The translations under genes and the position numbers were made by a program. The notes under the pieces were generated by a model. That model did not search any database, was not told the DNA's origin, and saw nothing but the letters and a program-made list of their open reading frames with translations. A stretch of 64,000 nt of DNA from Sphingomonas sp. JUb134. Its GTDB lineage: Bacteria; Pseudomonadota; Alphaproteobacteria; Sphingomonadales; Sphingomonadaceae. Of the stretch, positions 27,976 through 50,689 are shown in pieces. Each line of letters begins with the position of its first letter. Position 1 is the first letter of the stretch. The DNA lies in the NCBI RefSeq assembly GCF_004341505.2, contig NZ_SLYP02000001.1, positions 648,501-712,500 of the forward strand, read 5' to 3'.

Positions 27976-28015
27976 CTTAAGGCAGGCTTAGGGTCACGCT
28001 TAAGGCTGGGATAAG
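27976..28015 (+). promoter_or_regulatory. tandem PmrA/QseB-like boxes in the divergent tlpA / two-component promoter
   Basis: Box 1 is CTTAAG-GCAGG-CTTAGG (27976-27992) and box 2 is CTTAAG-GCTGG-GATAAG (27999-28015). They are 23 bp apart, about two helical turns. The CTTAAG-N5-CTTAAG arrangement is the classic PmrA-type OmpR-family site. Matching boxes occur before the dsbD-like gene and the RND operon. Confidence 0.75.
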
Positions 28016-28037
28016 TTCGTGCGGTAAGGACGGCGGG

Positions 28038-28697
28038 ATGCGAATATTGGTAATCGAAGACGACGAGATCCTGCGCGACGGCCTTGCCGCCGGGCTGGGC
28101 CTCGAAGGGTTCGAGGTGGACAGCGTGGTGAACTGCACCGACGCGCGCGCCGCCGTCGCGACGCAGGATCATGCGGCCATCGTCCTCGATATCGGCTTGC
28201 CGGATGGCTCGGGCCTCGAACTCCTGACGGAGTGGCGGCGCGACGGGGTGAAGACGCCCATCCTTCTTCTGACCGCGCGCAACCTCATCGGCGACCGCAT
28301 CGACGGGCTCGATGGCGGGGCGGACGACTATCTTGGCAAGCCGTTCGATCTTGGCGAGCTATCGGCACGCCTGCGGGCACTTCTGCGGCGCTCGAGCGGC
28401 CGGGCCGAGAACGGGATCAGCCTGGGCGACCTGACGATCGACGAAGCCTGCCGCACCGTCGCCGTCGCCGGCGAGGAGGTGGCGCTGTCGCGGCGCGAAT
28501 ATGCGATCCTGCATGCACTCGCGAGCCATCCCGGCCACGTTCTCTCGCGCGGCCAATTGGAGGATCGCATCTACGGGTGGCAGGACGAGGTAGAGAGCAA
28601 CGCCGTGGAGGTCCATATCCACAAGCTGCGCGCCAAGCTCGGCCGCGAGCGGATCGAGACCGTTCGCGGCGAAGGCTATCGGATCGCCCGCCAATGA
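28038..28697 (+). CDS. OmpR-family response regulator
   Basis: A 219-residue PmrA/QseB/TctD-like regulator. The receiver has the acidic pair EDDE (residues 7-10), the phosphoacceptor in IVLDIGLPDGSGLELL and the conserved lysine in DDYLGKPFDLGEL. The C-terminal winged helix includes ALSRREYAILHALASHPGHVLSRGQLEDRIYGW and VEVHIHKLRAKLG, with the recognition helix that would read CTTAAG half sites. The ATG is overlapped downstream by the kinase start. Confidence 0.93.
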   Translation: MRILVIEDDEILRDGLAAGLGLEGFEVDSVVNCTDARAAVATQDHAAIVLDIGLPDGSGLELLTEWRRDGVKTPILLLTARNLIGDRIDGLDGGADDYLGKPFDLGELSARLRALLRRSSGRAENGISLGDLTIDEACRTVAVAGEEVALSRREYAILHALASHPGHVLSRGQLEDRIYGWQDEVESNAVEVHIHKLRAKLGRERIETVRGEGYRIARQ

Positions 28698-30016
28698 TGT
28701 CGCTGCGTATCCGCCTTTTCGCGTTGGTGGCGGCGATCACCATGATCGTCTGGGCGGGCGCGGCCACCTGGACCGCGCTGTCCACGCGCGCGGAGGTGCA
28801 ACGCGTCCTGGATGGACGTCTTATCGAGGCCGCCCGCATGGTGGCGGCGCTCGACGTGCCGATGGTCGATGAACCGAGGCGGCTCCCGCCCACGGCCTAC
28901 ACGCGCCAGCTCTCGTGCCAAATCTGGTCGATGGGTGGTGAATTGATCGGCCAGTCCGCCGGCGCGCCTGATCTGCCGCTCGCACAGGGGCAACCCGGAT
29001 TTTCCGAGCGTCAGATCGGGGACCAGCATTGGCGGGTCTATACCCATGTCGATGCGCAACGCGGCCTGCGGGTGATGGTGGGCGACAATCTCAGTGTGCG
29101 CCAACGGCTCGTGACGGGCATGATGATCGGCCTGCTCCTGCCGGCGCTGGTGGGCCTGGCCGGGCTCGGCGTCCTCCTTTGGCTCGGGGTTGGGCGCGGG
29201 CTTCGGCCGCTCGATGCCTTGGCCCGGTCGATCGCGGCGCGCTCGCCGAGCAGCCTTACGCCCCTGGATGAGACCGTCGGCCCTAGCGAATTGCGGCCCG
29301 TCGTGCAGGAAATGAACGGCCTGCTGCGGCGGCTTGAAGCGGCCCGCCAGGCCGAACGCGATTTTGTCGCCAATGCCGCGCATGAAATGCAGACGCCTTT
29401 GGCCGGGCTCAAGACGCAAGCGGAGGTCGCCCGGCGGGCAACGGACCCAGCCATGCGCGACCATGCGCTGGAGCAGATCACGCGATCGGTGAACCGCACC
29501 AGTCGCATGGTGCGCCAGCTTCTCAGCCTCGCAGGTGAGGAGGGACGAGCGCGCGAGCCGCAGATTCAACCGGTCGTCCTCGACCCCGTGCTGGCCGAGG
29601 TGATCGACGACTATCGTGCGGTCGCGACAGCGCGTGATATGCGGATCGTCGTGGCGCCGTCATGCGAAGGAGCCGCGGCGCCGATGGCGCCCGAGGCTTT
29701 GCGCCAGGCGATCGGGAATCTTGTCGAGAACGCCCTTCATCACGCCGGTCCGGGCGGCGAAGTCGTCATCGCCTGCGAGACCAACGGCAAAGCAATGGAA
29801 ATCTTGGTCATGGATCGCGGATCGGGCATCGCGCCGCAGGATCGGGATCGACTGCGCCGCCGCTTCGAGCGCGGGGCCGGTGTGCAGAATAGCGGGAGCG
29901 GCTTGGGGTTATCGATCGTCGAGGCAGCGGTGGAGAGTTGCGGCGCGCGCCTCGATCTGCGCGAACGGCCATCGGGCGGCTTGATCGCGGCAATCCGGTT
30001 CGATCGATCGATCTAG
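28694..30016 (+). CDS. sensor histidine kinase
   Basis: A 440-residue two-membrane-helix kinase, partner of the upstream regulator (ATGA overlap). Helix 1 is LFALVAAITMIVWAGAATW. A periplasmic sensor of about 125 residues contains one cysteine (QLSCQIW). Helix 2 (GMMIGLLLPALVGLAGLGVLLWL) leads into a HAMP-like region. The H-box is ANAAHEMQTPLAGL, the N-box NLVENALHH, and the G-boxes DRGSGI and GSGLGLSIVEAA. The signal is unknown; the regulon suggests metal or thiol stress. Its stop shares a CTAG with the convergent arsR-type gene. Confidence 0.93.
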   Translation: MMSLRIRLFALVAAITMIVWAGAATWTALSTRAEVQRVLDGRLIEAARMVAALDVPMVDEPRRLPPTAYTRQLSCQIWSMGGELIGQSAGAPDLPLAQGQPGFSERQIGDQHWRVYTHVDAQRGLRVMVGDNLSVRQRLVTGMMIGLLLPALVGLAGLGVLLWLGVGRGLRPLDALARSIAARSPSSLTPLDETVGPSELRPVVQEMNGLLRRLEAARQAERDFVANAAHEMQTPLAGLKTQAEVARRATDPAMRDHALEQITRSVNRTSRMVRQLLSLAGEEGRAREPQIQPVVLDPVLAEVIDDYRAVATARDMRIVVAPSCEGAAAPMAPEALRQAIGNLVENALHHAGPGGEVVIACETNGKAMEILVMDRGSGIAPQDRDRLRRRFERGAGVQNSGSGLGLSIVEAAVESCGARLDLRERPSGGLIAAIRFDRSI

Positions 30017-31025: not shown

Positions 31026-31069
31026 CAATCCCGTCTCTCACTCCAAGCGCATTGACGCAACTCACTTAC

Positions 31070-31113: not shown

Positions 31114-32028
31114 ATGGACGAGACAGTTCAAAAGGCAGCGGCTCAGATCGCGAACGCGCGCAACGGCGTGCCGCAGATCAAGGCGTTCTTCGACGAGCCC
31201 ACCTTCACCGCCAGCTATGTGGTGCATGACCCCGAGACTCGGGCGGCAGCAATCATCGATAGCGTGCTCGACTACGACGCGGCATCGGGAAGGACCTCGT
31301 TCGCTTCGGCCGATGCGATCATCGCCTATGTTCACGAGCATGACCTTGCGGTCGAATGGTTGCTGGAAACCCATGCTCATGCCGACCATCTTTCGGCCGC
31401 GCCCTATATTCAGGGAAAGGTCGGCGGAAAGCTCTCTATCGGCCGGGCAATCCTTCAGGTGCAGGAGATCTTCGGCAAGATCTTCAACGAAGGCACCGAG
31501 TTCGCGCGCGACGGATCGCAATTCGATCGCCTGTTCGAGGATGGCGACCAGTTCACCATCGGCAATCTCCAAGCGACCGTGCTGCATGTGCCTGGCCATA
31601 CGCCGGCGGACCTTGCCTACGTGATCGGCGACGCGGCGTTTGTCGGCGACACGCTGTTCATGCCCGACTACGGCACCGCGCGCGCGGACTTTCCGGGCGG
31701 CGACGCACGCACGCTGTTCCGCTCGATCCGACGGCTGCTGACCCTTCCTCCCGAAACACGCCTGTTCCTGTGTCATGACTATAAGGCGCCAGGCCGCGAT
31801 CGCTTCGCCTGGGAAACGACCGTTGCCGCCCAGCGGGCCGGTAACGTCCACGTTCATGACGGGGCCGAGGAAGAGGCGTTCGTCGCCATGCGCGAGGCGC
31901 GCGACGCCACGCTCGACATGCCCAAGCTCATCCTGCCGTCGATCCAGGTGAACATGCGCGGTGGCAGACTGCCCGAGCCTGAGGACAACGGCACGCGCTA
32001 CCTCAAGATTCCGCTGGATGCCGTTTGA
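31114..32028 (+). CDS. MBL-fold hydrolase, ETHE1/Blh-like persulfide dioxygenase
   Basis: A 304-residue metallo-beta-lactamase-fold protein. The metal motif is LLETHAHADHLSAAPYI. Further ligands are in VLHVPGHTPADLAYVIGDAAFVGDTLF and in LFLCHDYKAPGRDRFAWETTV. The pattern fits the Blh/ETHE1 branch, non-heme iron persulfide dioxygenases that turn glutathione persulfide into sulfite. The downstream YeeE pair, SQR and TauE support that role: sulfide to persulfide to sulfite to export. Confidence 0.9.
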   Translation: MDETVQKAAAQIANARNGVPQIKAFFDEPTFTASYVVHDPETRAAAIIDSVLDYDAASGRTSFASADAIIAYVHEHDLAVEWLLETHAHADHLSAAPYIQGKVGGKLSIGRAILQVQEIFGKIFNEGTEFARDGSQFDRLFEDGDQFTIGNLQATVLHVPGHTPADLAYVIGDAAFVGDTLFMPDYGTARADFPGGDARTLFRSIRRLLTLPPETRLFLCHDYKAPGRDRFAWETTVAAQRAGNVHVHDGAEEEAFVAMREARDATLDMPKLILPSIQVNMRGGRLPEPEDNGTRYLKIPLDAV

Positions 32029-32465
32029 TGGGCACGCTGTTTCCCGACGCCATGCCGCTGACGGGTTTCCTCGGCGGGCTGATGATCGGCGTCGCCGGGG
32101 CGATCATGCTGCTCGGGCTTGGCAGGATCGCTGGGGTCAGCGGTATGGCTGCGACCTCTATCGGGGTTGGTGAGCGAGGGTCGGATCGCAAGCTGGCGCT
32201 GGCCTTCATTATCGGCCTTCCGCTCGGCGCGGCGCTGATCTCGCTCACCGGTCCCTTGCGGATCGCCTTCCCGGACTCGACCGCGCTTTTGATAGCCGGC
32301 GGGCTTCTTGTGGGGTTCGGCACACGGCTCGGCAGCGGCTGCACCAGCGGACATGGGGTCTGCGGGTTGTCGCGCCTGTCGCCGCGCTCGCTCGTGGCGA
32401 CCGGCCTGTTCATGACGGCGGGCTTCGCCACGGTGGCCATCATGCGCGCATCGGGGACGCTCTGA
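32028..32465 (+). CDS. YeeE/YedE family membrane protein, first of a pair
   Basis: A 145-residue protein with about four membrane helices. The family signature is GTRLGSGCTSGHGVCGLSRLSPRSLVAT, with two conserved cysteines that are thought to guide thiosulfate or another reduced sulfur species through the membrane in YeeE. It starts directly at the MBL stop (TGATG). Its partner follows after two bases. Such half-size pairs (PmpA/PmpB-like) occur next to persulfide dioxygenases. Confidence 0.88.
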   Translation: MGTLFPDAMPLTGFLGGLMIGVAGAIMLLGLGRIAGVSGMAATSIGVGERGSDRKLALAFIIGLPLGAALISLTGPLRIAFPDSTALLIAGGLLVGFGTRLGSGCTSGHGVCGLSRLSPRSLVATGLFMTAGFATVAIMRASGTL

Positions 32466-32467
32466 CC

Positions 32468-32902
32468 ATGCGGATGCTCATCGCACTTGCCGCCGGCCTC
32501 CTGTTCGGCGCCGGCCTCGCCATATCCGGATTGGCGGACCCGTCCCGCGTAACTGCCTTCCTCGACCTGTTCGGTGCATGGGACCCGACCCTCGCTTTCG
32601 TCATGGCCGGCGCGATCCTGCCGATGGCCGTTGCATGGCAGGTCCAGCGCCGCGCGCGGCGGGCCTTGTCGGGCGATGCCTTCTGCGTGCCGGAAACGAC
32701 CAGACTCGACGCACGACTTGCGATCGGGGCGCTGCTCTTTGGCGTGGGGTGGGGGCTTACCGGCATCTGCCCCGGCCCGGCCGTCGCCAATTTGGGGCTC
32801 GCGCCGGTCGCGGTGCTTCCGTTCCTGATCGCAATGGCAGGCGGGATGCTTCTCCACCGGCTCTGGGCGAACCGTCGACCATCCTCGAAGGCCGGCAACT
32901 GA
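32468..32902 (+). CDS. DUF6691 / YeeE-like membrane protein, second of a pair
   Basis: A 144-residue polytopic protein, second half of the YeeE/YedE-like pair. It starts LIALAAGLLFGAGLAISGLADPSRVTAFLDLFGAWDPTLAFVMAGA, the usual DUF6691 opening. It carries a cysteine in the GVGWGLTGICPGPAVANLG signature. It probably forms a sulfur-compound channel with the preceding gene (inference from pairing and from YeeE structures). Confidence 0.88.
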   Translation: MRMLIALAAGLLFGAGLAISGLADPSRVTAFLDLFGAWDPTLAFVMAGAILPMAVAWQVQRRARRALSGDAFCVPETTRLDARLAIGALLFGVGWGLTGICPGPAVANLGLAPVAVLPFLIAMAGGMLLHRLWANRRPSSKAGN

Positions 32903-32914
32903 AAGGCGCGTCTG

Positions 32915-34492
32915 ATGGAAAAGGTCATTCCGATCGGCGAAGGCTTCGCGATCACAAGCCAACTCGACCCTGAGGATCTGAGGGCGGCGGCCGCGGCGGG
33001 ATTTCGCTCCGTCATCTCCAATCGGCCAGACGATGAGGAGCCCGGCCAACCGAGCGCCGCCGAAATCGAGCAAGCGGCCGCGGCGGCGGGCCTCGCCTTC
33101 GCTCACCTGCCAGTCTCAAGCCGCGACATCGCGCTTGAGGATGCGCGCGCGATGCGCGGTGCGCTGGATCGGCTCCCCGGCCCCATTCTCGCCTATTGCC
33201 GCACGGGCGCACGCTCCCAGGCCATGCACACGGCCGCGACGTCATTGAATAGTCAGGCGAAGCGCTATGACGTGGTGATCGTTGGCGGCGGCAGCGCGGG
33301 GATCGCTTGCGCCGCCAGCATCCTCAAGCGGAGGCCGGACATCTCGCTCGCCATCATAGAGCCGTCCGAAACCCATTACTATCAACCAGGCTGGACGCTC
33401 GTGGGCGCCGGCGTGTTTCAACCCGAGGCGACGCGCCGTCCGATGGCGAGCGTGATCCCCAAGGGGGCCGAATGGCTGCGTCAGGAAGCGCTCGCGCTTC
33501 ATCCTGATGAGCAAGCGGTCGAATTGGCCGACGGTTCGCGCATCGCCTATCGCGGGCTAGTCGTCGCGGCCGGCATCAAGCTCGACTGGAACGCCATCCC
33601 CGGCCTCGCCGGGACGCTCGGCGAACATGGCGTGACCTCCAACTATCGCTACGATCTCGCGCCCTATACGCGCGATCTTGTTCAAACACTGAGGAACGGC
33701 GTTGCGCTGTTCACGCAGCCGCCCATGCCGATCAAATGCGCGGGCGCACCGCAAAAGGCCATGTATCTCTCCTGCCATGCCTGGGAGCGCGAAGATTGCC
33801 TCGGCGCGATCGACGTCGAGTTCCACAACGCCGGCGCGGCGTTGTTCGGTGTCGCCGACTATGTGCCGGCACTCATGCGCTACATCGAGCGTTACGGCAT
33901 CGATCTTCGACTCGGCTCGACGCTGATTGAGGTTGATGGACCCGGACGCCGCGCGGTCTTTCGGCAAGGGGCCGGCGAACGATCACAAACCTGCGAACGC
34001 CGCTTCGACATGCTTCACGCGGTGCCACCGCAAGTCGCGCCGGACTTCATTGCGAACAGCGCCCTCGCCGACGCCACCGGCTTCGTGGCGGTCGATCCCG
34101 CGACGCTTGCCCATCCGCGCTGGCCCAACGTGTTTGCGCTGGGCGATGTCGCCGGCACAAGCAATGCCAAGACCGCCGCCGCCGCGCGCAAGCAGGCCCC
34201 CGTCGTCGCGGTCAATCTCCTGGCCGTGCTCGATAGCACGCTGCCCTGGGCGACCTATGACGGCTATGGCTCCTGCCCTCTGACCGTCGAGCGGGGCAGG
34301 ATCGTGCTGGCGGAGTTCGGCTATGGCGGCAAGCTCCTGCCGAGCTTCCCGTCCTGGCTGCTCGACGGACGCAGGCCGACCCGCCGGGCTTGGTTCCTCA
34401 AGGACCGTCTGCTCCCGCCCATCTATTGGCGCGGCATGCTCAAGGGCCGCGAATGGCTGGCGGCGCCCGGTCGCCGCGACGACGAGCAATGA
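32915..34492 (+). CDS. fusion of DSP-type phosphatase-like domain and sulfide:quinone oxidoreductase
   Basis: A 525-residue two-domain protein. Residues 1-108 form a TIGR01244/DSP-like domain with the CxxxxxR signature YCRTGARSQ (Cys95 to Arg100). From residue 117 a FAD oxidoreductase begins (DVVIVGGGSAGIACAASILKR). SQR features are THYYQPGWTLVGAG, the cysteine stretches PIKCAGAPQKAMYLSCHAWEREDC and GYGSCPLTVERG, and an amphipathic C-terminus (RAWFLKDRLLPPIYWRGMLKG) suited to membrane binding. The phosphatase-like cysteine may accept persulfide sulfur (inference). Confidence 0.9.
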   Translation: MEKVIPIGEGFAITSQLDPEDLRAAAAAGFRSVISNRPDDEEPGQPSAAEIEQAAAAAGLAFAHLPVSSRDIALEDARAMRGALDRLPGPILAYCRTGARSQAMHTAATSLNSQAKRYDVVIVGGGSAGIACAASILKRRPDISLAIIEPSETHYYQPGWTLVGAGVFQPEATRRPMASVIPKGAEWLRQEALALHPDEQAVELADGSRIAYRGLVVAAGIKLDWNAIPGLAGTLGEHGVTSNYRYDLAPYTRDLVQTLRNGVALFTQPPMPIKCAGAPQKAMYLSCHAWEREDCLGAIDVEFHNAGAALFGVADYVPALMRYIERYGIDLRLGSTLIEVDGPGRRAVFRQGAGERSQTCERRFDMLHAVPPQVAPDFIANSALADATGFVAVDPATLAHPRWPNVFALGDVAGTSNAKTAAAARKQAPVVAVNLLAVLDSTLPWATYDGYGSCPLTVERGRIVLAEFGYGGKLLPSFPSWLLDGRRPTRRAWFLKDRLLPPIYWRGMLKGREWLAAPGRRDDEQ

Positions 34493-35277
34493 CCCTCGAG
34501 CCCGTTCAATATGTCCTGGGGCTCGTCTCGGGCGGGCTGGTGGGCTTGAGCCTCGGCCTGGTCGGCGGCGGCGGCTCGATCCTCGCCGTTCCCCTGATGG
34601 TCTATCTGGTCGGCGTGCCAAGCCCTCATGTCGCGATCGGAACCAGCGCACTCGCGGTCGCCGCCAATGCGGCCACCGGCCTCGCCAACCATGCCTGGGC
34701 GCGCAACGTCAAATGGCGCTGCGGCGGCATGTTCGCTGGCGGTGGCATCGCGGGCGCGCTCGCCGGCTCAACGCTCGGCAAGATGGTCGATGGCGAAAAG
34801 CTGCTGTTCCTGTTCGCGCTGGTCATGCTGCTGGTCGGCGGGTTTATGCTCAAAGGGCGCGGCAATCCCGGCGATCCGGGTGCCGAATGCAACCGTGAGA
34901 AGGCCCCGAAAGTGATCGGCTACGGCCTGGGCTCCGGGCTGTTCTCCGGCTTTTTCGGCATCGGCGGTGGCTTCCTGATCGTGCCGGGCCTGGTCGCCTC
35001 CACCGGCATGCCGATCCTGCTTGCGGTCGGCACGTCGCTGGTCGCGGTTACGGCCTTCGGCCTCACCACGGCCGCCAACTACGCCTTTTCCGGGCTCATC
35101 GACTGGCCGCTCGCGGCTCTTTTCATCGCCGGCGGCGCGGTCGGCAGCTTCGCCGGCACGCTCTTCGCCCGGCGTCTCGGTGCCACCACGGGCCGCCTCA
35201 CCACCGTCTTTGCAACCCTGATCTTCGCCGTCGCCGCCTACATGCTGTGGCGGAGCGGCGCGGCCCTTTTCACCTGA
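34489..35277 (+). CDS. TauE/SafE family sulfite exporter
   Basis: A 262-residue polytopic inner-membrane exporter. The two internal repeats are visible: GGLVGLSLGLVGGGGSILAVPLMVYLVG and GLFSGFFGIGGGFLIVPGLVAS. About eight helices are predicted by eye. It overlaps the SQR stop by ATGA. In this context it most likely exports sulfite made by the persulfide dioxygenase. A second, truncated TauE is at 59957 and is not a copy of this one. Confidence 0.92.
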   Translation: MTLEPVQYVLGLVSGGLVGLSLGLVGGGGSILAVPLMVYLVGVPSPHVAIGTSALAVAANAATGLANHAWARNVKWRCGGMFAGGGIAGALAGSTLGKMVDGEKLLFLFALVMLLVGGFMLKGRGNPGDPGAECNREKAPKVIGYGLGSGLFSGFFGIGGGFLIVPGLVASTGMPILLAVGTSLVAVTAFGLTTAANYAFSGLIDWPLAALFIAGGAVGSFAGTLFARRLGATTGRLTTVFATLIFAVAAYMLWRSGAALFT

Positions 35278-35288
35278 AAGGAACCACA

Positions 35289-35918
35289 ATGACCCTGCAT
35301 ATTGGCGACACCGCTCCCGACTTCACCGTCGATACCCAGGTCGGCCCGATCAGCTTCCATGAATGGGCCGGCGATAGCTGGGTGTTCTTCTTCAGCCACC
35401 CGGCCGACTTCACGCCGGTCTGCACGACCGAGATGGGCCGCACCGCCCAACTCGCCCAGGCGTTCGAGAGCCGCAATACCAAGCCGCTCGGCCTTTCGAC
35501 CGATACAGCGGAAGAACATCGCAAATGGATCGACGACGTTAACGACACGCAGAAGACCGATCTGCGCTTCCCGATCGTCGCGGATGCCAACCTCGCCATC
35601 GCGCGTATGTATGACATGATCCACCCGGAGCAGAGCGAGACCGCAGCGGTGCGCTCGGTCTTCATCATCGATCCGGCCAAGAAAATCCGGCTCACGATGA
35701 CCTACCCGATGAGCGTCGGCCGCAACTTCGATGAGGTCCTCCGGGTGATCGACGCGCTCCAGCTCGGCGACGCGCGCCGCATCGCGACGCCGGCCGACTG
35801 GATGCCCGGTAAAGAGGTCATCATCCCGCCGTCGATCAGCGACGAGGAAGCACGCGGCCTGTTTCCCCAAGGCTGGACCGAGCACCGTGCCTATCTGCGG
35901 ACCACGATGGTCGATTGA
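35289..35918 (+). CDS. 1-Cys peroxiredoxin (Prx6 type), second copy
   Basis: A 209-residue Prx6-type peroxiredoxin. The peroxidatic cysteine is in FSHPADFTPVCTTEMGRTAQLAQAFE, with TMTYPMSVGRNFDEVLRVIDALQ and DWMPGKEVIIPPSISDEEA following. It is clearly related to but distinct from the copy at 30405. I start at 35289 because GAAAGGAACC precedes it. It ends the sulfide module. A strong dyad (35953-35981) separates it from the oxidase operon. Confidence 0.93.
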   Translation: MTLHIGDTAPDFTVDTQVGPISFHEWAGDSWVFFFSHPADFTPVCTTEMGRTAQLAQAFESRNTKPLGLSTDTAEEHRKWIDDVNDTQKTDLRFPIVADANLAIARMYDMIHPEQSETAAVRSVFIIDPAKKIRLTMTYPMSVGRNFDEVLRVIDALQLGDARRIATPADWMPGKEVIIPPSISDEEARGLFPQGWTEHRAYLRTTMVD

Positions 35919-35952
35919 CGAGCGTGCAAACGCCGCGTGTCTGCGCGCCGGT

Positions 35953-35981
35953 GGGACGCTTTGCCTAATGTAAAGCGTCCC
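35953..35981 (+). terminator. perfect hairpin between peroxiredoxin and oxidase genes
   Basis: GGGACGCTTT and AAAGCGTCCC form a perfect 10-bp stem around a nine-base loop. In RNA, a G-U pair and two G-C pairs could extend it. No T-tract follows, so it could instead be an attenuator or a regulator-binding site for the cydA promoter. Confidence 0.45.
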
Positions 35982-36019
35982 GCCCACGCATCAGGAGCAG
36001 GCGGAGGAGACAGTTTCCG

Positions 36020-38533: not shown

Positions 38534-38549
38534 GCGTAAGGAGAGCGAT

Positions 38550-39988: not shown

Positions 39989-40021
39989 GGAATGGGCGCC
40001 TGCTGCATCGCGGGCGTCGCT

Positions 40022-40038: not shown

Positions 40039-40057
40039 CTGCGCGGCCGATGGCGCC

Positions 40058-42267: not shown

Positions 42268-42315
42268 GGCGTCACCTCAAGCTTTGTACGCTGAACAACG
42301 ATTTTCCGGACATAA
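42268..42315 (+). repeat. left terminal inverted repeat of the Tn3-family transposon
   Basis: Forty-eight bases from GGCGTCACCTCAAG to CGGACATAA, matching the complement of 48827-48874 at 41 positions. It follows the target duplication TGATC. Confidence 0.95.
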
Positions 42316-42329
42316 TGTGAACATTGGTG

Positions 42330-42890: not shown

Positions 42891-43060
42891 TGCGCACTCT
42901 CTCCATCAAAATGTCAGGTTGAAATCTATGATACGCAACGACATTCGTCAACAAATTCCGTTTAGTACCCTAATCTGACAGAAACCGCGGTAGCGCCCTG
43001 ACGTCCGGTTAGGCTATACTCCAAGCTGACATCACAAAATCAAATCCCTCAAAGATGGCG
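42891..43060. other. res site region between tnpR and merR
   Basis: A 170-bp AT-richer gap upstream of tnpR, the normal place for the three-subsite res. TGTCAG-type words recur here (near 42912 and 42976), but I cannot delimit the subsites by eye. Confidence 0.5.
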
Positions 43061-43483
43061 TCAATTGCCTTGATGGGGTAAAAACTGGAGTGCTTCCAGG
43101 ATGGGACATTCGGCAACGTCATCTCCAGTGCATCTGGCTAACGTGGTCGCCAGCGTCACCTCTATCTTCTGCAAATCTGCAATGCGGCGGCGGACATCTT
43201 CAAGGTGGAGTTCGGTTCTCGCCATAACCTCCGCGCAGGTTTGTGCACCGGTATCGGTGAGCGACAACAATGACCGTATCTCATCCATTGCATAGCCAAG
43301 GTCGCGCGCGCGCAGGATGAACTGCAACCTTTGCACCAGTTCCGGCGAATAGACGCGGTAGCCGTTGGAACTGCGAGGCGGCCCCGGCAGCAATCCCACC
43401 TTCTCGTAATAGCGGATGGTTTCGAGATTGCAGCCTGTTTTCCGGGCAAGCTGGGCACGCAAGATGCCGACCTGTTGCTCCAT
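43061..43483 (-). CDS. merR: MerR, mercury-responsive regulator
   Basis: A 140-residue MerR. The HTH is ARKTGCNLETIRYYEKVGLLPGPPRSSNGYRVY. A long dimer helix follows. The three Hg-binding cysteines are visible: TGAQTCAEVMART and, near the end, LARCTGDDVAECPILEAL. I start at 43483 (MEQQVGILRAQLA); the longer frame would run into the mer operator. It is divergent from merTPA and would sit on the 43495-43525 promoter. Confidence 0.95.
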   Translation of the reverse strand: MEQQVGILRAQLARKTGCNLETIRYYEKVGLLPGPPRSSNGYRVYSPELVQRLQFILRARDLGYAMDEIRSLLSLTDTGAQTCAEVMARTELHLEDVRRRIADLQKIEVTLATTLARCTGDDVAECPILEALQFLPHQGN

Positions 43484-43494
43484 GAAAATACCTC

Positions 43495-43525
43495 TTGAGT
43501 CTGTAGTGGCTACAGAGCCTACACT
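43495..43525 (+). promoter_or_regulatory. mer operator-promoter
   Basis: TTGAGT (-35, 43495-43500) and TACACT (-10, 43520-43525) are separated by 19 bp. The spacer begins with the perfect dyad CTGTAG-TGG-CTACAG (43501-43515). The overlong spacer with a central dyad is the hallmark of MerR-activated promoters. Confidence 0.92.
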
Positions 43526-43559
43526 GCGAATCACTCAGTTGGAACAAGGGATTCAAGCC

Positions 43560-43955
43560 ATGGTCTCAACGCCGGAAGCGGGACAGCCAGCCCTCACCGA
43601 AAACCACGAGCCGAAGCAGGCAAACTGGGTTGCGGCGGGCGCATTGATCGGCGCGGGGCTCGCCTCGGCTTGCTGCGTCGTCCCGCTACTGTTGGTTATG
43701 CTCGGAATTTCCGGCGCGTGGATCGCCAACCTGACGGCGCTCGAACCTTACAAGCCCTATGTCGCAGGCGTAACGCTCGCGCTGCTCGGCTACGGCTTCT
43801 GGCATGTCTATTTCAAGCCGAAACCGCCCTGTGAAGACGGTTCCTACTGCGCTCGTCCACAATCGGCTTGGACCACCAAGGCGGTGCTGTGGCTGGGCCT
43901 TGCCGTCGCCATCCTGGCGCTCACCATCGACTGGTGGGCACCCTGGTTCTATTGA
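43560..43955 (+). CDS. merT: MerT mercuric ion transporter
   Basis: A 131-residue inner-membrane protein with three helices. The paired cysteines in the first helix (GAGLASACCVVPLLLVMLGISGAWI) and the cytoplasmic pair in CEDGSYCARP pass Hg(II) from MerP to MerA. I start at 43560 because AAGGGA precedes it and the promoter lies upstream. The sequence is longer at the N-terminus than classical MerT (116 residues). Confidence 0.93.
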   Translation: MVSTPEAGQPALTENHEPKQANWVAAGALIGAGLASACCVVPLLLVMLGISGAWIANLTALEPYKPYVAGVTLALLGYGFWHVYFKPKPPCEDGSYCARPQSAWTTKAVLWLGLAVAILALTIDWWAPWFY

Positions 43956-43967
43956 AAGGAAATACCC

Positions 43968-44297
43968 ATGAAAAAGACAGTATGTATCGCTATGGCCGTG
44001 CTGGCTATGGCTGGCGGCGGGGTCGCCTATGCAGTTAGTGGCACGGCGCAAGATCGCCCCGCGGCTACCGCAACCGCTCAGAAGCAAACCACCTTTGCCA
44101 TAGAGAACATGACCTGCGCCACCTGCCCGATCACCGTGAAGAAGGCGATGGAAGGCGTCGCCGGGGTAACGGCGGTCACGGTCGATTTCGCAGCCAAGAC
44201 CGCGCGCGCAACCTATAACCCGCGCCGCACCAATGCTGCTGCGATTGCCGCTGCATCAACCAACGCGGGTTATCCGGCGCGCGCTATTCAAAACTGA
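43968..44297 (+). CDS. merP: MerP periplasmic mercury-binding protein
   Basis: A 109-residue protein: signal peptide (IAMAVLAMAGGGVAYA), a short linker, then a heavy-metal-associated domain with the motif IENMTCATCPITVKKAMEGVAGV. It binds Hg(II) in the periplasm and passes it to MerT. Twelve bases after merT, same operon. Confidence 0.94.
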   Translation: MKKTVCIAMAVLAMAGGGVAYAVSGTAQDRPAATATAQKQTTFAIENMTCATCPITVKKAMEGVAGVTAVTVDFAAKTARATYNPRRTNAAAIAAASTNAGYPARAIQN

Positions 44298-44334
44298 GCG
44301 GGGCGCCGCCAGCGCCTCAAGAAAGCGATAAGCA

Positions 44335-45753
44335 ATGAACGACTGTTGCAACCGCCCCGGGCAGGAAGGATTTGACGTGGCCGTCATCGGCGCGGGTTCT
44401 GCCGGGTTCTCCGCCGCGATCGCCGCTGCCGATCTGGGCGCGAAAGTGGCGCTCGTCGGTCACGGCACGATTGGCGGCACCTGTGTCAATGTTGGCTGCG
44501 TTCCTTCCAAGACGCTGATCCGCGCCGCCGAAGCGGTGCATGGTGGGCTTGCCGCCGCGCGCTTTCCCGGCCTTGGGGGCGCTGTCCAGATGGATGACTG
44601 GTCCGTATTGGCGGCGTCGAAGGACGATCTTGTCACGACGCTGCGCCAAAAAAAATATGTCGATCTGCTGCCCGCCTATGACGGTGTGAGCTATATCGAG
44701 GGCAAGGCACGCTTTGCCGATGGTGCGCTGATTGTCGGCGATGCGCCCATGAAGGTCGGCAAGGTCATATTGGCGATGGGTGCGCACGCCGCCGTGCCGC
44801 CGATTCCGGGGATGGACAGCGTGCCCTACCTAACCAGCACATCGGCGCTGGCGCTGGATCGCTTGCCCAAATCGCTGCTGGTGATCGGTGGCGGGGTGAT
44901 CGGGGTAGAACTGGGACAGATGTTTTCGCGTCTGGGCGTTGATGTCACCATCTGCTGCCGAAGCCGCCTGCTCCCCGAAATGGACCCGGAAGTGAGTGCC
45001 GCGCTGAAAAACTATTTGGAAGCCGAGGGCGTGCGGGTTTGCGCAGGTGTCGGCTATCAGCGTATCGCCCAAACACAGAGCGGGGTCGAATTGACCTGCG
45101 AGGGGCATTGTGACACCGTCGCGGCGGAACAGGTGCTCATCGCCACCGGACGCCGACCCAATAGCGACGGGCTTGGGCTGGAGGAGCGCGGCATAGTGCT
45201 TGCCCGTAATGGTGGAATCGTCGTCGATGACCACCTCGAAACGTCGGTTCCAGGCATTTACGCGGCGGGCGATGTAACGGGACGGGACCAGTTCGTCTAC
45301 ATGGCCGCCTATGGCGCAAAACTGGCCGCGCGCAACGCGGTGACGGGCAACCAATACCGCTACGACAATTCCTCCATGCCATCCGTCGTCTTCACCGACC
45401 CGCAAGTCGCCAGCGCCGGCCTCACTGAAACGACAGCACGGGCGCAAGGCCTGGACATCAAGGTTTCGCTGCTCCCGCTCGATGCTGTGCCAAGGGCACT
45501 GGCAGCACGCGATACGCGGGGTCTCATCAAACTGATTGCCGACAAGGCGAACGACCGTTTGCTGGGCGGCCAGATCATGGCACCCGAAGGCGCGGATTCG
45601 ATCCAGACACTGGTGCTGGCGATCAAACACGGCATGACCACCCTGGAATTGGGTGCAACGATATTTCCTTACCTGACCACTGTGGAAGGCCTCAAACTGG
45701 CGGCCCAAACGTTTGATAAGGATGTCGCCAAACTGTCTTGCTGCGCCGGGTGA
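44335..45753 (+). CDS. merA: MerA mercuric reductase
   Basis: A 472-residue FAD/NADPH enzyme reducing Hg(II) to Hg(0). The FAD site is DVAVIGAGSAGFSAAIAAA, the redox pair is in GGTCVNVGCVPSKTLIRA, the NADPH site is LLVIGGGVIGVELGQMF, and the C-terminal vicinal pair that takes up mercury is LSCCAG. The N-terminal HMA domain of long MerA forms is absent; only MNDCCNRPGQEG precedes the core. Last mer gene, 91 bp before tnpA. Confidence 0.95.
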   Translation: MNDCCNRPGQEGFDVAVIGAGSAGFSAAIAAADLGAKVALVGHGTIGGTCVNVGCVPSKTLIRAAEAVHGGLAAARFPGLGGAVQMDDWSVLAASKDDLVTTLRQKKYVDLLPAYDGVSYIEGKARFADGALIVGDAPMKVGKVILAMGAHAAVPPIPGMDSVPYLTSTSALALDRLPKSLLVIGGGVIGVELGQMFSRLGVDVTICCRSRLLPEMDPEVSAALKNYLEAEGVRVCAGVGYQRIAQTQSGVELTCEGHCDTVAAEQVLIATGRRPNSDGLGLEERGIVLARNGGIVVDDHLETSVPGIYAAGDVTGRDQFVYMAAYGAKLAARNAVTGNQYRYDNSSMPSVVFTDPQVASAGLTETTARAQGLDIKVSLLPLDAVPRALAARDTRGLIKLIADKANDRLLGGQIMAPEGADSIQTLVLAIKHGMTTLELGATIFPYLTTVEGLKLAAQTFDKDVAKLSCCAG

Positions 45754-45844
45754 TTGCTCGGGGATCAACCGGCAACGAATGGCCTCCCTCCAGTGCAAGC
45801 CGCTTTGGTGTCAATTTTGTTATTCGCCTCAGCGGGAGAGCAAA

Positions 45845-48814
45845 ATGGCACGACGCCGACTTCTGACCGGAGACGAGCGCCGGCGCCTGTTCGATCCTCC
45901 TGTCCAAGAAACCGCGATCATTGGGCATTATACCCTTTCTGCGGAAGATGTTGAATTGGTTGGGCGCCGCTATGGTCCAGCAAATCGCCTCGGTCTGGCT
46001 GCACAAATCGCTTTGATGCGACATCCCGGCTTTGGTCTGCAACCCGAGATCGGGCTTCCCGACGTCATTCTTCAGTACCTCGCGGCACAGTTATTCGTCG
46101 ATCCTTCCTCCTTCTCTGCATATGGTCAGCGCGCGCAAACCCGTACCGATCATGCCGATCTCGTGGCGCGTTATCTTGGCATACGCCCGTTTCGACGCGG
46201 CGACCTGGCACTTGCCCTGAATCTTGCCGCGCAAGCCGCCGAGTATACAGACAGAGGTGAACCGATTGTTCGCGCCCTCATGGTTGGCCTGAAGGGTGAG
46301 CGGTTCATTCTTCCGTCAGGCGACACACTGGAACGCGCCGGTCTTGCTGGCCGGGCACGCGCACGCAAAGCTGCCGCAGCCGCAATCGTCGAAGGCCTCA
46401 GCTCTGCTGAACTGACACGGCTAGACGAACTCGTAATCAACAACCCGGATTTCGGCATGACACCGCTGGCGTGGTTGCGTAATTTCGAAGAAGCCCCGAC
46501 TGCGGCCAATATCAATGGCTTGCTTGAGCGCCTGCGCTATGTTCGCGGCATAGGTATCCACCCGGTAGTTGGGGGCGCCATTCCGGAATTCCGCTTTGCC
46601 CAATTTGTCCGCGAGGGCGGCGTGGCACCGGCATTCCTGCTTTCGGATTACAGCGTCAATCGCAGGCGGGCGACGTTGACGGCCGCAGTGATCGACCTTG
46701 AGGCCAGACTTGCCGATGCCGCGATCCAAATGTTTGACCGACTTATCGGCGGCATGTTCACGCGCGCGCGGCGTGGGCGCGAGCGTCGCTACCAAGATAG
46801 TATTCAGTCGGTGGGGCAACTCATGCGGCTGTTTGGCGCCACGATTACAGCACTTGATGAGGCTGTCCAGAATGGCGGCGATCCGCTCGAATTGATTGAC
46901 GAAGCGGTGGGCTGGCACCGGCTTGTTGCGGCAAAGGCCCAAGTAGATGCCCTTGCTGATCTTGCCGGCGAGGACGCACTGGTAACGGCAACCGAGCGTT
47001 ACGCCACGCTACGGCGTTTCAGCCCGGCATTTCTGGACGCCTTCACCTTCAAGGCGTCTGGAACAGGGACGGCACTGATCAAAGCCATCGATGTCATTCG
47101 CGATGCGAACACACGAAAGTCGCGCGACCTTCCCGATGGCGTTCCACTGCCATTCCCCAATCGGCAGTGGAAGCGTCTCATCACCGAAAGCGGCCGTATC
47201 GACCGCCGACGTTATGAAATTGCGATCATGGCAACCTTGCGTGATCGTTTGCGCGCCGGTGATGTATGGATCGAGGGAACCCGCAACTATCAGCGCTTCG
47301 ATGCCTATTTGCTGGGTCGGCGCGACGCCGCCAAAGTGGCGGATGTGCTTCCGTTCGATTCAAATGCTGCATCCTACCTCGCTGACCGGGCACGAAATCT
47401 TGACTGGCGGCTGCGCCGATTTGCCAAGCAGTTGAAAACAAACAAGCTTGAGGGAGTGTCGCTCGAACGAGACCGGCTCAAGCTTCAGCAAATGCCGCCT
47501 GTCACCCCACCGGAAGCTGAAGCCCTCGATCGCAAGCTCGATACCCTGCTTCCCCGCGTGCGCATCACCGAGCTGCTGCTTGAAGTCGCCGAACGCACTG
47601 GTTTTTTGAACGCATTCCGTGACCTGCGCTCAGGCAAGGAGCACGACAACCCCAGCACGGTACTCGCCGCAATTCTGGCTGATGGCACCAACCTCGGGCT
47701 GGAGCGGATGGCCAATGCCAGCGAAGGCGTCAGCTATGCCCAACTCGCATGGACCCACAACTGGTATCTTTCACCCGAGAACTATCAGGCCGCGCTGGCC
47801 ATGATCATCTCAGCCCATCACGAATTACCCTTCGCGCGGCATTGGGGCGCTGGCACCAGTTCGTCGTCCGATGGCCAGTTCTTCCGGTCGGGGCGGAGCC
47901 GTTCAGGGGCGGCGGACGTCAATGCCAAATATGGCGCCGAACCTGGCGTGAAAATCTATTCTCACCTTTCCGATCACTTCGCATCATTCGGATCACGGAT
48001 CATGTCCGCGACGGCAGGTGAAGCGCCTTACGTGCTCGACGGGCTTGTCCTGGGCGCCGGCAACCTTCCGTTGCATGAGCACTATACCGATACCGGCGGC
48101 GCCACCGATCATGTTTTCGCACTCTGCCACCTACTCGGGTTCCGCTTCGCGCCACGGCTGCGCGATATTGGCGACCGCAAGCTGGGTTCGATCGCTGCGC
48201 CATCGACATACAAGGGCATCGAAAATCTGATGGGCCGCACCATCAAAACGGCAGCGATCGAGGCCGATTGGGATGACATCGTCAGGATTGTCGCCTCAAT
48301 CAAGGATGGCACGGTGGCGCCGTCAGTAATCTTGCGAAAACTTGCCGCCTACAAACGCCAGAACAGGCTGGATTTTGCATTGGCTGAACTGGGCCGTATC
48401 GAGCGCACTTTGTTCACGCTCGATTGGCTTGAACAACCGGAACTGCGACGTGCCTGTCAGGCCGGTCTCAACAAAGGCGAGGCGAGGCACACGCTTGCCG
48501 CCGCCATCTATACCAACCGGCAGGGTCGGTTCACCGATCGCTCGCTGGAAAATCAGGAATTTCGCGCATCTGGGCTGAACCTGCTGATTGCGGCGATTTC
48601 CTACTGGAACACGGTCTATCTCGACCGGGCCGCCCAGCACCTCAACGCTGTCGGCACGACGTTCGATGCGGCACTGCTTGCGCACCTTTCTCCGATGGGC
48701 TGGGCGCACATCAGTCTGACCGGCGATTACCTCTGGGAGCAGGCCAGGCGACTTCCAGCAGGTGAATTCCACCCACTCAACGAGCCAATGGCGCGGTTGA
48801 AGCGTGTAGCGTAG
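45845..48814 (+). CDS. tnpA: Tn3 family transposase TnpA
   Basis: A 989-residue DDE transposase. The N-terminal DUF4158 region (LTGDERRRLFDPP, GPANRLGLAAQIALMRHPGF) recognises the inverted repeats. The catalytic domain includes AAILADGTNLGLERMANAS (first Asp), VKIYSHLSDHFASFGSRIM and YVLDGLVLGAGNLPLHEHYTDTGGATDHVFALCHLLG. Near the C-terminus are ISYWNTVYLDRA and LSPMGWAHISLTGDYLW. Full length and intact. It ends 60 bp from the right end of the element. Confidence 0.96.
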   Translation: MARRRLLTGDERRRLFDPPVQETAIIGHYTLSAEDVELVGRRYGPANRLGLAAQIALMRHPGFGLQPEIGLPDVILQYLAAQLFVDPSSFSAYGQRAQTRTDHADLVARYLGIRPFRRGDLALALNLAAQAAEYTDRGEPIVRALMVGLKGERFILPSGDTLERAGLAGRARARKAAAAAIVEGLSSAELTRLDELVINNPDFGMTPLAWLRNFEEAPTAANINGLLERLRYVRGIGIHPVVGGAIPEFRFAQFVREGGVAPAFLLSDYSVNRRRATLTAAVIDLEARLADAAIQMFDRLIGGMFTRARRGRERRYQDSIQSVGQLMRLFGATITALDEAVQNGGDPLELIDEAVGWHRLVAAKAQVDALADLAGEDALVTATERYATLRRFSPAFLDAFTFKASGTGTALIKAIDVIRDANTRKSRDLPDGVPLPFPNRQWKRLITESGRIDRRRYEIAIMATLRDRLRAGDVWIEGTRNYQRFDAYLLGRRDAAKVADVLPFDSNAASYLADRARNLDWRLRRFAKQLKTNKLEGVSLERDRLKLQQMPPVTPPEAEALDRKLDTLLPRVRITELLLEVAERTGFLNAFRDLRSGKEHDNPSTVLAAILADGTNLGLERMANASEGVSYAQLAWTHNWYLSPENYQAALAMIISAHHELPFARHWGAGTSSSSDGQFFRSGRSRSGAADVNAKYGAEPGVKIYSHLSDHFASFGSRIMSATAGEAPYVLDGLVLGAGNLPLHEHYTDTGGATDHVFALCHLLGFRFAPRLRDIGDRKLGSIAAPSTYKGIENLMGRTIKTAAIEADWDDIVRIVASIKDGTVAPSVILRKLAAYKRQNRLDFALAELGRIERTLFTLDWLEQPELRRACQAGLNKGEARHTLAAAIYTNRQGRFTDRSLENQEFRASGLNLLIAAISYWNTVYLDRAAQHLNAVGTTFDAALLAHLSPMGWAHISLTGDYLWEQARRLPAGEFHPLNEPMARLKRVA

Positions 48815-48826
48815 CCCATGTTCCGC

Positions 48827-48874
48827 TTATGTCCGAGAAATCGTTGTCTGGCGAACAAACCTTGAGGTGACGCC
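48827..48874 (-). repeat. right terminal inverted repeat of the Tn3-family transposon
   Basis: Complement of the left repeat with seven mismatches. Its last bases, GAGGTGACGC, lie immediately before the displaced lnt start and happen to form a good Shine-Dalgarno sequence. Confidence 0.95.
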
Positions 48875-48960
48875 TGATCCGCATCCGAGCGGCGATCTTC
48901 GCCCTCGGCGCGATCTCGGCACTCGGCTTTGAACCCTGGTCGCTCTGGCCGGTTACGCTG

Positions 48961-50370
48961 GTGAGCCTGACTCTGCTGCTCCGCCACGCGGGCGGCGCGC
49001 GATCGTGGCGGCAGGCGGCAGGCGCCGGATGGTGGTTCGGCCTTGGCCTGGGCTGCGCCAGCCTGACCTGGCTGGCGCATGCCTTCACCTTTCAGGCAGC
49101 GATGCCTCAATGGCTTGGATGGCCCGCGGTGGCGTTGCTGGCGGCCTACACCGCCGGCTATTGGGCGCTGTCGCTCGGCGCGGCTTCTGCTGTCTCGCGA
49201 ACCAGCGGACCGGCCGGCTTCGCCCTTGCCAGCGCCGCCACCTTCATCCTGGCCGAATGGCTACGCGGCGTCCTGTTAACCGGCTTCCCGTGGAATCCGC
49301 TGGGCGTCATCTGGCTACCGCTCGGTGAGATGGCTCGAAGCGCGGCGGTGATCGGCGCGCTCGGGCTATCGGGCGTGACCATAGCGATCGCGAGGCTGCT
49401 CGCGGCCATCACGCGGCGCGATGGTGTGACTGCGATGCTTCTGGCGCCCGCGGTAGTCGTCCTCACGCTCGCATTGGCTGGTCCCCGATCCGCACCCGAC
49501 ACGGATGTGCCAATCCGTCTCGTGCAGGGGAATATCGATCAGGCCGACAAATGGCGGCCGGGTCAAGCGATGGCGCAGGTCGAACGCTATCGCAGCCTCA
49601 GCGGTCCGCCTGGAACGACAGCAACACCGCGGCTCGTATTCTGGCCGGAAGCGGCGATCATCGAGCCGCTCGATGCCGATCCCGTGCTGCGATCGCGAGC
49701 GGCATCGGTTCTGGGTCCTCGAGACCTGCTGTTCACCGGCGCGACCGGCGAAGCTGGAGACGGCCGCTATACCAACAGTGTCTTCGTCCTCGACGCCGCC
49801 GGACGCCTTCTCGGCCGTTACGACAAGGCGCAGCTCGTGCCCTTCGGCGAATATCTGCCGTTCGCAGGGTTGCTGGAGCGGCTCGGTGCCGCCCGACTAG
49901 TGCCGGGCGAGGCGGACTTCGTTCCAGGACCTGGCCCGCAAACGCTCGATATCGACGGCCTCAGGCTGGGCATATCCATCTGCTACGAGATCGTATTCCC
50001 ATCAACCGTGATTGATCGATCGCACCGGCCGGCGTTCCTTTTCAATCCGTCCAACGACGCCTGGTTCGGCAAGGGGGGTCCCGAACAGCATCTCGCCCAG
50101 GCGCGCATGCGTGCGATCGAGCAAGGATTGCCGGTCATTCGCGCCACATCGACGGGCCGCACGGCTGTCATTCGCGCTGATGGCACTATCGCGGCCAGCC
50201 TGCCGGCGCATGAAGCCGCGCGGCTCGATACCGTCCTGCCAGCGTCCAACCCGGCCACCATTTTCAGCCGTTGGGGTTCGGTCCCGCAGATGGGCGCGGC
50301 CATCGTCATGCTCGCCACGCTGCTTCTCCGGCGTCAGCAGCACGGCCGAGCGAGTCGTCGTCGCCTGTGA
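48961..50370 (+). CDS. lnt: apolipoprotein N-acyltransferase, start codon disrupted by Tn3
   Basis: A polytopic membrane acyltransferase that adds the third acyl chain to lipoproteins. The nitrilase-like triad is visible: Glu in LVFWPEAAIIEP, Lys in GRYDKAQLVPFGEYLPF and Cys in LGISICYEIVFPS. In-frame coding continues upstream to 48877 (IRIRAAIFALGAISALGFEPWSLWPVTL, the family's first helix), but the original GTG was cut by the transposon and now reads CTG (48874). From the GTG at 48961 the product is 469 residues and lacks about 29. Confidence 0.88.
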   Translation: MSLTLLLRHAGGARSWRQAAGAGWWFGLGLGCASLTWLAHAFTFQAAMPQWLGWPAVALLAAYTAGYWALSLGAASAVSRTSGPAGFALASAATFILAEWLRGVLLTGFPWNPLGVIWLPLGEMARSAAVIGALGLSGVTIAIARLLAAITRRDGVTAMLLAPAVVVLTLALAGPRSAPDTDVPIRLVQGNIDQADKWRPGQAMAQVERYRSLSGPPGTTATPRLVFWPEAAIIEPLDADPVLRSRAASVLGPRDLLFTGATGEAGDGRYTNSVFVLDAAGRLLGRYDKAQLVPFGEYLPFAGLLERLGAARLVPGEADFVPGPGPQTLDIDGLRLGISICYEIVFPSTVIDRSHRPAFLFNPSNDAWFGKGGPEQHLAQARMRAIEQGLPVIRATSTGRTAVIRADGTIAASLPAHEAARLDTVLPASNPATIFSRWGSVPQMGAAIVMLATLLLRRQQHGRASRRRL

Positions 50371-50689
50371 CGACGCCTGAATCGCGTTCGCCCAGGCCGG
50401 CATCCTTATCGTGTTTGCCGATCCCGTCGAGTTTGAGTGGCGTCTGGGTGGTCGAACGTATGCTGCGCGGATCGAACGGCTTCGATCAGGTGCTGGCGGG
50501 ACTTCGCAAAACCCTGTCTGCGCCACAGCGCAGCCGGGCTGAGGATGGCGCGCCTTGGCGAACAAGTGGCGGATATTTTTTCGCGGTGCAGCATCTCATA
50601 AGCCAGCCTTAAGCTGAGCCGTCTTTTCCCGATCTCGCGGGAGGACGAACGATGCTCACCAATTCACCTCTGTTTGGGAACCAAGCCCG
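50371..50689 (+). other. intergenic region before the RND operon
   Basis: A 319-bp region without a credible long gene. The first 220 bp look like ordinary GC-rich DNA with short open frames on both strands that I do not recognise. The last 100 bp hold the regulator box (50597-50613) and a 13-codon leader (50652). Confidence 0.5.
50597..50613 (-). promoter_or_regulatory. PmrA/QseB-like box before the RND operon
   Basis: On the minus strand the site is CTTAAG-GCTGG-CTTATG. The surrounding 18-mer at 50599-50616 is identical to that before the dsbD-like gene. It lies 93 bp before the RND start and 55 bp before the leader start. Confidence 0.75.

Follow-up and report, generated by a model that had tools for sequence, protein, structure and literature searches.

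A probable DsbRS-type regulon joining disulfide-exchange and efflux genes on a conjugative element of Sphingomonas sp. JUb134

The cluster and its boxes

The window analysed here is a stretch of 64,000 nucleotides from Sphingomonas sp. JUb134 (contig NZ_SLYP02000001.1, positions 648,501 to 712,500). It contains a cluster in which a two-component system lies among genes for Dsb-type proteins of disulfide chemistry and an operon for a tripartite efflux pump of the resistance-nodulation-division (RND) type, with a short repeat, here called the box, in front of several of the genes. Our conclusion, to which we give a probability of about 0.8, is that the cluster is an enlarged DsbRS-type regulon borne on an integrative and conjugative element (ICE), in which a kinase senses thiol stress and boxes bound by the regulator activate tlpA-dsbA, dsbD and the RND operon. 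The genes and boxes of the proposed regulon are as follows.

26475..27149, minus: dsbA-like gene for a thioredoxin-fold protein (Pfam DSBA)
27146..27952, minus: tlpA/dsbE-like gene with a partial Lgt-like N-terminal membrane part (Pfam Redoxin and partial LGT; 37% to its counterpart at locus L125)
27976..27990, minus: box 1, TAAG-N5-CTTAAG towards tlpA-dsbA, between tlpA and the regulator (matrix score 33.7)
27999..28015, minus: box 2, a degenerate copy 23 bp from box 1, CTTATC-N5-CTTAAG on the minus strand (matrix score 14.0)
28038..28697, plus: response regulator of PmrA/QseB type (DsbR-like)
28694..30016, plus: sensor histidine kinase of QseC type, with a sensor-domain cysteine in LSCQIW (DsbS-like)
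39992..42265, plus: dsbD, longest open reading frame (Pfam DsbD_N, DsbD_TM, Thioredoxin_7)
40024..40038, plus: box 3, before dsbD, conserved in the Sphingomonas cupriresistens locus L130 (matrix score 28.0)
48961..50370, plus: second apolipoprotein N-acyltransferase gene (lnt), nominal start (TIGR00546, 269 bits; CYE motif kept)
50599..50613, plus: box 4, before the RND operon, the RND gene being boxed also in L005 and L130 (matrix score 28.2)
50690..53872, plus: RND permease, not of Cus type
53754..55028, plus: membrane-fusion protein (MFP), nominal start
54433..56418, plus: outer-membrane factor (OMF) of the NodT family, nominal start
56415..57074, plus: DsbA-like protein, last gene of the RND operon

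The exact pattern CTTAAG-N5-CTTA occurs three times in the window, at 27976 (+), 40024 (-) and 50599 (-), and these are the only exact matches in the whole genome (4,115,562 bases in 4 contigs), so that no equally good match to this pattern is found outside the cluster. The original prediction counted four sites of the form CTTAAG-N5-CTTAnn. Three of them are exact, and the copy at 27999 reads CTTAAG-N5-GATAAG, which breaks the CTTAnn half, its minus strand being a perfect TTA-N8-TTAA. The prediction had also placed an identical 18-mer before dsbD and the RND operon, 10.6 kb apart, and this is indeed the case: TAAGCCAGCCTTAAGCTG is present at 40024-40041 and 50599-50616, separated by 10,575 bp. 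Boxes 1, 3 and 4 share the orientation TAAG-N5-CTTAAG when read towards tlpA, dsbD and RND respectively. When up to one mismatch is allowed there are five matches in the window (overlapping readings of the three exact sites), against 0.28 expected, a number reached by none of 100 shuffled windows.

The window was also scanned with a position matrix, as had been suggested together with the prediction. The matrix was built from 32 distinct sites, mostly from sphingomonad loci, with the window and its closest relative left out, and it recovers boxes 1, 3 and 4 (33.7, 28.0 and 28.2). The best score per random 64-kb sequence (n=60) has a mean of 9.8, a 95th percentile of 13.8 and a maximum of 17.4; box 2, at 14.0, falls inside this range and has no significance on its own. 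If boxes read in reverse are set aside, no further site in the window scores above 6.1. A promoter scan of 27900-31200 returned no promoters.

Conservation of the box in relatives

A scan of named genomes with an alignment of the kinase found 304 relatives; the best 80 loci were kept and make up, together with two plasmid loci and the window, a set of 83 loci (1.65 Mb). Absence of the boxes from homologous clusters would have told against the prediction. They are in fact present in 79 of the 83 loci, where CTTAAG-Nk-CTTA with k=5 gives 227 hits (both strands, palindromes counted twice). The only other spacing from k=0 to 17 with more than 3 hits is k=17, that of tandem boxes (31 hits in 16 loci); the rest give 0 to 3 each. 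The regulator promoter is boxed in most of the 83 loci, usually 50-65 bp before the start.

The boxes are also tightly grouped. In a set of 12 genomes, most of them from Sphingomonadales, there are 42 exact matches. All but one, 41 in number, share a single contig in their genome and are at most about 31 kb apart; the remaining match is on a 4.7-kb contig. In these genomes the reversed control pattern, with 64 matches, is commoner than the box with its 42, and the evidence there is therefore the location of the matches and not their number. Among 29 genomes chosen for carrying the kinase, one of which is also among the 12, 26 have the palindromic form of the box, with 70 sites in all against 4 for the control. 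In a class-wide draw the palindromic form is found in 19 of 240 genomes, none of which carries the kinase at E <= 1e-60. An equal draw from the class, searched for the kinase, yielded only the genome of the window and one congener, both without the palindromic form.

Two further loci are worth mentioning. Genome G037 holds a lone exact match, CTTAAGGCTGGCTTA (L129), with no cluster gene found in 17 kb, and this is probably a chance occurrence. At the Methylosinus plasmid locus, no Dsb gene is annotated within 18 kb.

The sensor kinase and its regulator

The regulator was proposed originally to be of the PmrA/QseB type, and we agree, in that its best NCBIfam models are PmrA (244 bits) and QseB (212 bits), though both scores are below the cut-offs. 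The PmrA equivalog cut-off is 330 bits, which leaves the regulator outside PmrAB by this measure. Similarly, the best model for the kinase is QseC, with 223 bits against a cut-off of 475, and the kinase lies outside the QseC group, in a separate clade.

The scan that gave the 80 loci used the peptides RQLSCQIW and AA[VI]TM[LI]VW, and the conservation of the sensor-domain cysteine in those loci (L007-L086) is biased by this choice. The kinase was also searched for in 398 genomes of the phylum, with no selection for cysteine, and 30 loci were fetched. The ten best hits after the window (L088-L097) all have LSCQIW or a close variant. In a tree of 47 rows the 33 cysteine kinases (17 of them from the cysteine-biased scan) form one clade with support of 100/99, and the remaining 14 kinases have F, Y or L at the cysteine column. 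Three loci belonging to other classes of the phylum also fall in the cysteine clade, two from family f49 and one from f85.

Neighbourhoods were examined for 25 of the 30 fetched loci (all except L106, L113, L114, L115 and L116). All 14 loci whose kinase has the cysteine also have Dsb or L,D-transpeptidase genes nearby, and none of the 11 others does, a contrast that has to be read with the caution that the queries came from cysteine-kinase loci and may have missed diverged Dsb genes. At three loci from other classes (L125, L126 and L127) the kinase and regulator genes face an operon of dsbD, a tlpA-like gene and a third gene, named here dsbG from its position. TTA-N8-TTAA, the form of the DsbR box, lies between regulator and dsbD in all three, within a gap of about 1.1 kb in L126 and on one strand only in L127. 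Compared with this pattern, box 2 of the window is exact and boxes 1, 3 and 4 are one base off; since the motif is short, a single match counts for little. In the L125 kinase the cysteine is residue 82, and in that of L127 residue 84. Cys82 is reported to be the copper-binding cysteine of DsbS, and the L125 residue agrees with it in number.

In the window, tlpA-dsbA is divergent from the regulator and dsbD lies 12 kb away with a box of its own; in L128, tlpA, dsbA and dsbD are together. The same divergent layout is seen in P. fluorescens PFLU4380-4384, where a DsbR site has been predicted in the gap that separates dsbR from dsbD (PMC13101516), and DsbRS is described as a copper-responsive system that induces dsb genes, controlling dsbDEG in P. 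aeruginosa (PMC10141476; PMC11195947). The original prediction knew of no described system with this composition, but that none resembles it is not supported, these systems being of the same type. The window and DsbRS-dsbDEG share a PmrA/QseB-like regulator and a cysteine-bearing QseC-like kinase facing dsb genes, and targets of the DsbD, TlpA/DsbE and DsbA/G types; a box of the TTA-N8-TTAA type is also common to both. They differ in that here the system is on an ICE, dsbD is 12 kb away with its own box, and an RND-MFP-OMF-DsbA operon and a second lnt have been added, while relatives of the window have boxed L,D-transpeptidases.

Genes preceded by the box

A box was counted when it lies at most 300 bp upstream of a gene; duplicate upstream sequences were removed, and genes internal to an operon count as unboxed. 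On this basis the regulator is boxed in 78 of 89 cases, dsbD in 38/69, L,D-transpeptidase in 38/92, dsbA in 25/93 and tlpA in 23/55. Smaller groups are RND (7/18), dsbC/G-like genes (4/6), the COX1-type oxidase (3/4) and lnt (2/5). We chose the labels dsbG and dsbC/G by similarity and by place in the operon, one member having a Thioredoxin_2 match. No box precedes any of the 11 OMF or 11 MFP genes. The seven boxed RND genes are that of the window, five at 72 to 85% identity and one at 40%; of the 11 unboxed RND matches nine are at 23 to 40% identity, and the others are in L200 and L206.

Among the remote boxed genes fetched are Dsb proteins, several kinds of L,D-transpeptidase, oxidase subunits and Lnt, as well as an esterase-like protein, a solute-binding protein and a 5'-nucleotidase-like protein. 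At L213, L214 and L216 an L,D-transpeptidase gene faces the regulator with a box in the gap, and no Dsb gene was found in about 15.5 kb; this arrangement is perhaps an ancestral or a reduced form of the regulon. A box is found before a COX1-type oxidase gene at L190:9390-10958 and at L207:6402-7997, so that the regulon of some genomes may extend to terminal oxidases.

Box 3 falls inside the longest dsbD reading frame, and the homology to a relative starts further downstream, which suggests that the true start of dsbD probably lies after the box. A transposon sits exactly at the junction of dsbD and lnt:

42268..48874, plus: mer/Tn3-family transposon of 6.6 kb, with merT, an HMA-domain protein, a merA-like reductase and tnpA

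Its ends are 38-bp terminal inverted repeats matching at 32 of 38 positions, with a TGATC target duplication, and it has probably cut lnt off from its original translation start. In S. cupriresistens (L130), the closest relative fetched, dsbD, lnt and RND are adjacent without a transposon, and boxes stand before dsbD and RND. The 10.6 kb spacing of the boxes in the window is therefore secondary, and its lnt has been displaced from behind dsbD. The RND box of S. cupriresistens differs from the 18-mer in the spacer, with half-sites and spacing kept, and this rules out the exact 18-mer as the conserved unit. The lnt of the ICE is a second copy, the other being at G000:C1:182549, and an alignment shows that it keeps the CYE motif, which presumably holds the catalytic cysteine of Lnt.

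A proposed mechanism

The box, the architecture of the cluster, their conservation and the clade with other cysteine kinases are direct results of the computation, while the signal, the binding, the activation and the physiological purpose are inferred. Thiol-reactive stress in the periplasm would act on the cysteine of the kinase sensor domain; the stimulus would be copper by homology, with reactive sulfur species possibly acting in addition or instead. The phosphorylated regulator would then bind the direct-repeat boxes TAAG-N5-CTTAAG, with their 11-bp period, and activate the RND-MFP-OMF-DsbA operon, tlpA-dsbA and dsbD, which in the closest relative has lnt beside it. The output would restore reducing and isomerising power and supplement the cysteine-dependent envelope enzymes poisoned by the stress, and the pump of the regulon would export a substrate.

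Copper is reported to inhibit L,D-transpeptidases, disulfide formation and lipoprotein maturation (commentary, PMC6593411) and to impair lipoprotein acylation (PMC6538781), and the boxed Dsb, L,D-transpeptidase and Lnt genes act in just these processes. There is also some resemblance to Scs (suppressor of copper sensitivity), which likewise has copper-linked thioredoxin-fold disulfide isomerases, a likeness based on descriptions in the literature and not on sequence. Two-component control, Lnt and RND are not known to be part of Scs.

Several results weigh against the proposed regulon or its copper signal. The CTTAAG-like repeat is bound by PmrA/QseB-type regulators in general, and the box alone is no proof of DsbR identity; to this must be added the possible bias of the neighbourhood counts noted above. 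An exact box is missing in front of many dsb and L,D-transpeptidase genes (some may be internal to operons), the window has no boxed L,D-transpeptidase, and boxes also precede 5 of 90 kinase genes and 1 of 8 LysR genes. The original prediction of a regulon joining disulfide chemistry, a lipoprotein acyltransferase and efflux stands for the disulfide enzymes and the RND pump; lnt, in contrast, has no box of its own and could be reached only through dsbD, from which the transposon now separates it. Moreover, the commentary places the copper block in lipoprotein maturation at the Lgt step, before Lnt (PMC6593411), for which extra Lnt is no obvious cure. Finally, copper genes are scarce around the boxes: in 96 loci a CopA-type ATPase is found in 5, CueO in 1 and CusB in 0, with CusA-type genes in 15 (best identity 26%), and they are rarer than window-like metallo-beta-lactamase (MBL) genes (36) and TauE (23), a comparison tilted towards sulfur, since copper genes were sought with E. 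coli proteins and sulfur genes with those of the window itself.

The regulator, the logic of the box and the Dsb targets are thus of an already known kind. As far as the literature reached, which largely leaves subscription papers outside, the ICE-borne form and the boxed RND-MFP-OMF-DsbA operon are new, as are the boxed L,D-transpeptidases and Lnt in relatives. A wider reading, which we offer as speculation and regard as doubtful, is that the DsbRS family serves Alphaproteobacteria as the switch for a dedicated rescue programme for envelope cysteines, spread as an ICE-borne package. Its boxed targets (Dsb enzymes, L,D-transpeptidases, Lnt in some genomes and the tripartite pump in sphingomonads) would then point to those thiol enzymes of the periplasm that suffer most from soft electrophiles, and the natural signals would include reactive sulfur as well as copper. 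If the proposed mechanism is right, the regulon is a list of the envelope enzymes that need replacement when copper or reactive sulfur attacks their cysteines, and it couples their replacement to efflux in a transferable package. Two questions then become directly testable: what stimulates the cysteine kinase in bacteria other than Pseudomonas, and on which of the periplasmic thiol enzymes survival depends.

Alternative explanations

That the boxes are chance repeats, or a mobile repeat unrelated to regulation, is barely credible. Such an explanation would account for the lone match in G037, for the palindromic form in 19 of 240 genomes of the class that lack the kinase at the threshold used, and for the excess of the control pattern in the 12 genomes. 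It does not account for the fixed spacing, the same genes downstream in many genera or the location of 41 of 42 matches on one contig per genome, and the spacing spectrum (227 hits at k=5) and the 0 of 100 shuffles refute a chance origin. It is also very unlikely that this is an ordinary PmrAB- or QseBC-type system that stands beside redox and efflux genes by chance. QseBC and PmrAB belong to the same protein families, as the best NCBIfam models indicate, and have half-sites of the CTTAAG type. All the model scores are nevertheless below the curated cut-offs, the sampled kinases without the cysteine have F, Y or L in its place (14 kinases, against Cys in all ten best hits, which are the same-class hits covered), and no Dsb or L,D-transpeptidase match lies near any of 11 such kinases, against 14 of 14 for the cysteine kinases. 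The separate cysteine clade and these neighbourhoods led us to reject a plain PmrAB or QseBC system. A third suggestion is that the RND operon is a Cus-like copper or silver exporter and the regulon one of metal efflux with Dsb accessories, and this we consider unlikely. The kinase is tied to a copper-sensing family, CusRS-CusCFBA has the same pairing of a two-component system with an RND operon, and the permease has a partial similarity to CusA (274 bits), with Met aligned to CusA M391 and M486. The identity is only 26%, however, and MdtB is the best solved relative (313.7 bits), while the score on the CusA/CzcA model is 457.7 against a cut-off of 701.45. M573, M623 and M672 of CusA, its periplasmic methionine triad, correspond to H, I and a gap in the window protein, which has L and N opposite M403 and M1009; in addition, CusB matches are found in 0 of 96 loci. 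The low identity and the absent triad led us to reject a Cus-type pump, and from its sequence the pump is unlikely to export copper in the Cus manner. It is worth adding that S. cupriresistens has an RND-MFP-OMF paralogue (L132), 67% identical, without a box or two-component genes in 19 kb.

The alternative that deserves most attention concerns the signal alone: it may be reactive sulfur (sulfide, persulfide or polysulfide) and not copper, with the kinase cysteine becoming persulfidated or oxidised. The regulon would still guard envelope thiols, and the neighbouring MBL, SQR-like, TauE and cytochrome bd genes would detoxify sulfide. In the window these genes lie between the kinase and dsbD:

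31114..39988, plus: unboxed block of MBL-fold, sulfur-transferase/SQR-like fusion, TauE, cydA, cydB, methyltransferase and DsrE genes (several starts nominal)

Genes of this sulfide-oxidation-like kind (MBL, SQR-like, TauE, cytochrome bd) recur, box-free, beside the two-component family. In 34 genomes with boxes, 30 of 59 window-like MBL genes have a box no more than 20 kb away, where 0.84 would be expected, and MBL and TauE are found in 36 and 23 of the 96 loci. Polysulfides are reported to form disulfides in DsbA in vitro and to promote periplasmic disulfide formation in E. coli (PMC11921322). On the other hand, no box precedes MBL (0/41), SQR (0/24), TauE (0/23), DsrE (0/13), CydA (0/9) or CydB (0/8), so that the sulfide genes are neighbours and not evident direct targets of the regulator. 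In addition, copper is the stimulus described for DsbRS, the best studied relative, and the identity of the MBL protein as a persulfide dioxygenase comes from its gene neighbours, Pfam giving only the metallo-beta-lactamase fold. We regard a sulfur signal as a real possibility, though not the favoured one.

The conjugative element and neighbouring genes

The cluster was predicted to be a self-contained mobile regulon, and a single-locus regulon on a conjugative element is supported: all the exact boxes in the genome are in the cluster, which is flanked by conjugation genes and an integrase.

5833..24951, plus: conjugation and replication module with RepA, S26 peptidase, IS110-type transposase, SLT, relaxase, TraG, TrbB-like ATPase, TrbC, TrbE-like ATPase, TrbL, VirB8, CagX/TrbG and TrbI
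57289..58650, minus: tyrosine integrase, on the far side of the cargo

The element thus has both the integrase and the conjugation module of an ICE, and with RepA, relaxase, TraG and Trb genes on one side and the integrase on the other, the cluster is the cargo of a conjugative element. It is probably of the Tn4371 family, whose members likewise place their cargo among an integrase gene and RepA, relaxase, TraG and trb genes; the difference is that the cargo here is a DsbRS-type regulon. A literature search on sphingomonad ICEs with such cargo found no matching description. No 18-mer is common to 1-5000 and 56900-64000 that could mark attachment sites (the element may extend past the window), and the window contains no tRNA genes. 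The kinase is found at E <= 1e-80 in only 1 of 60 other genomes of the genus.

Two other genes may be noted. An AhpC/TSA peroxiredoxin gene (30405-31028, minus) lies between the kinase and the sulfide block, and a NorB-type nitric oxide reductase gene (61562-63865, minus) lies beyond the integrase.

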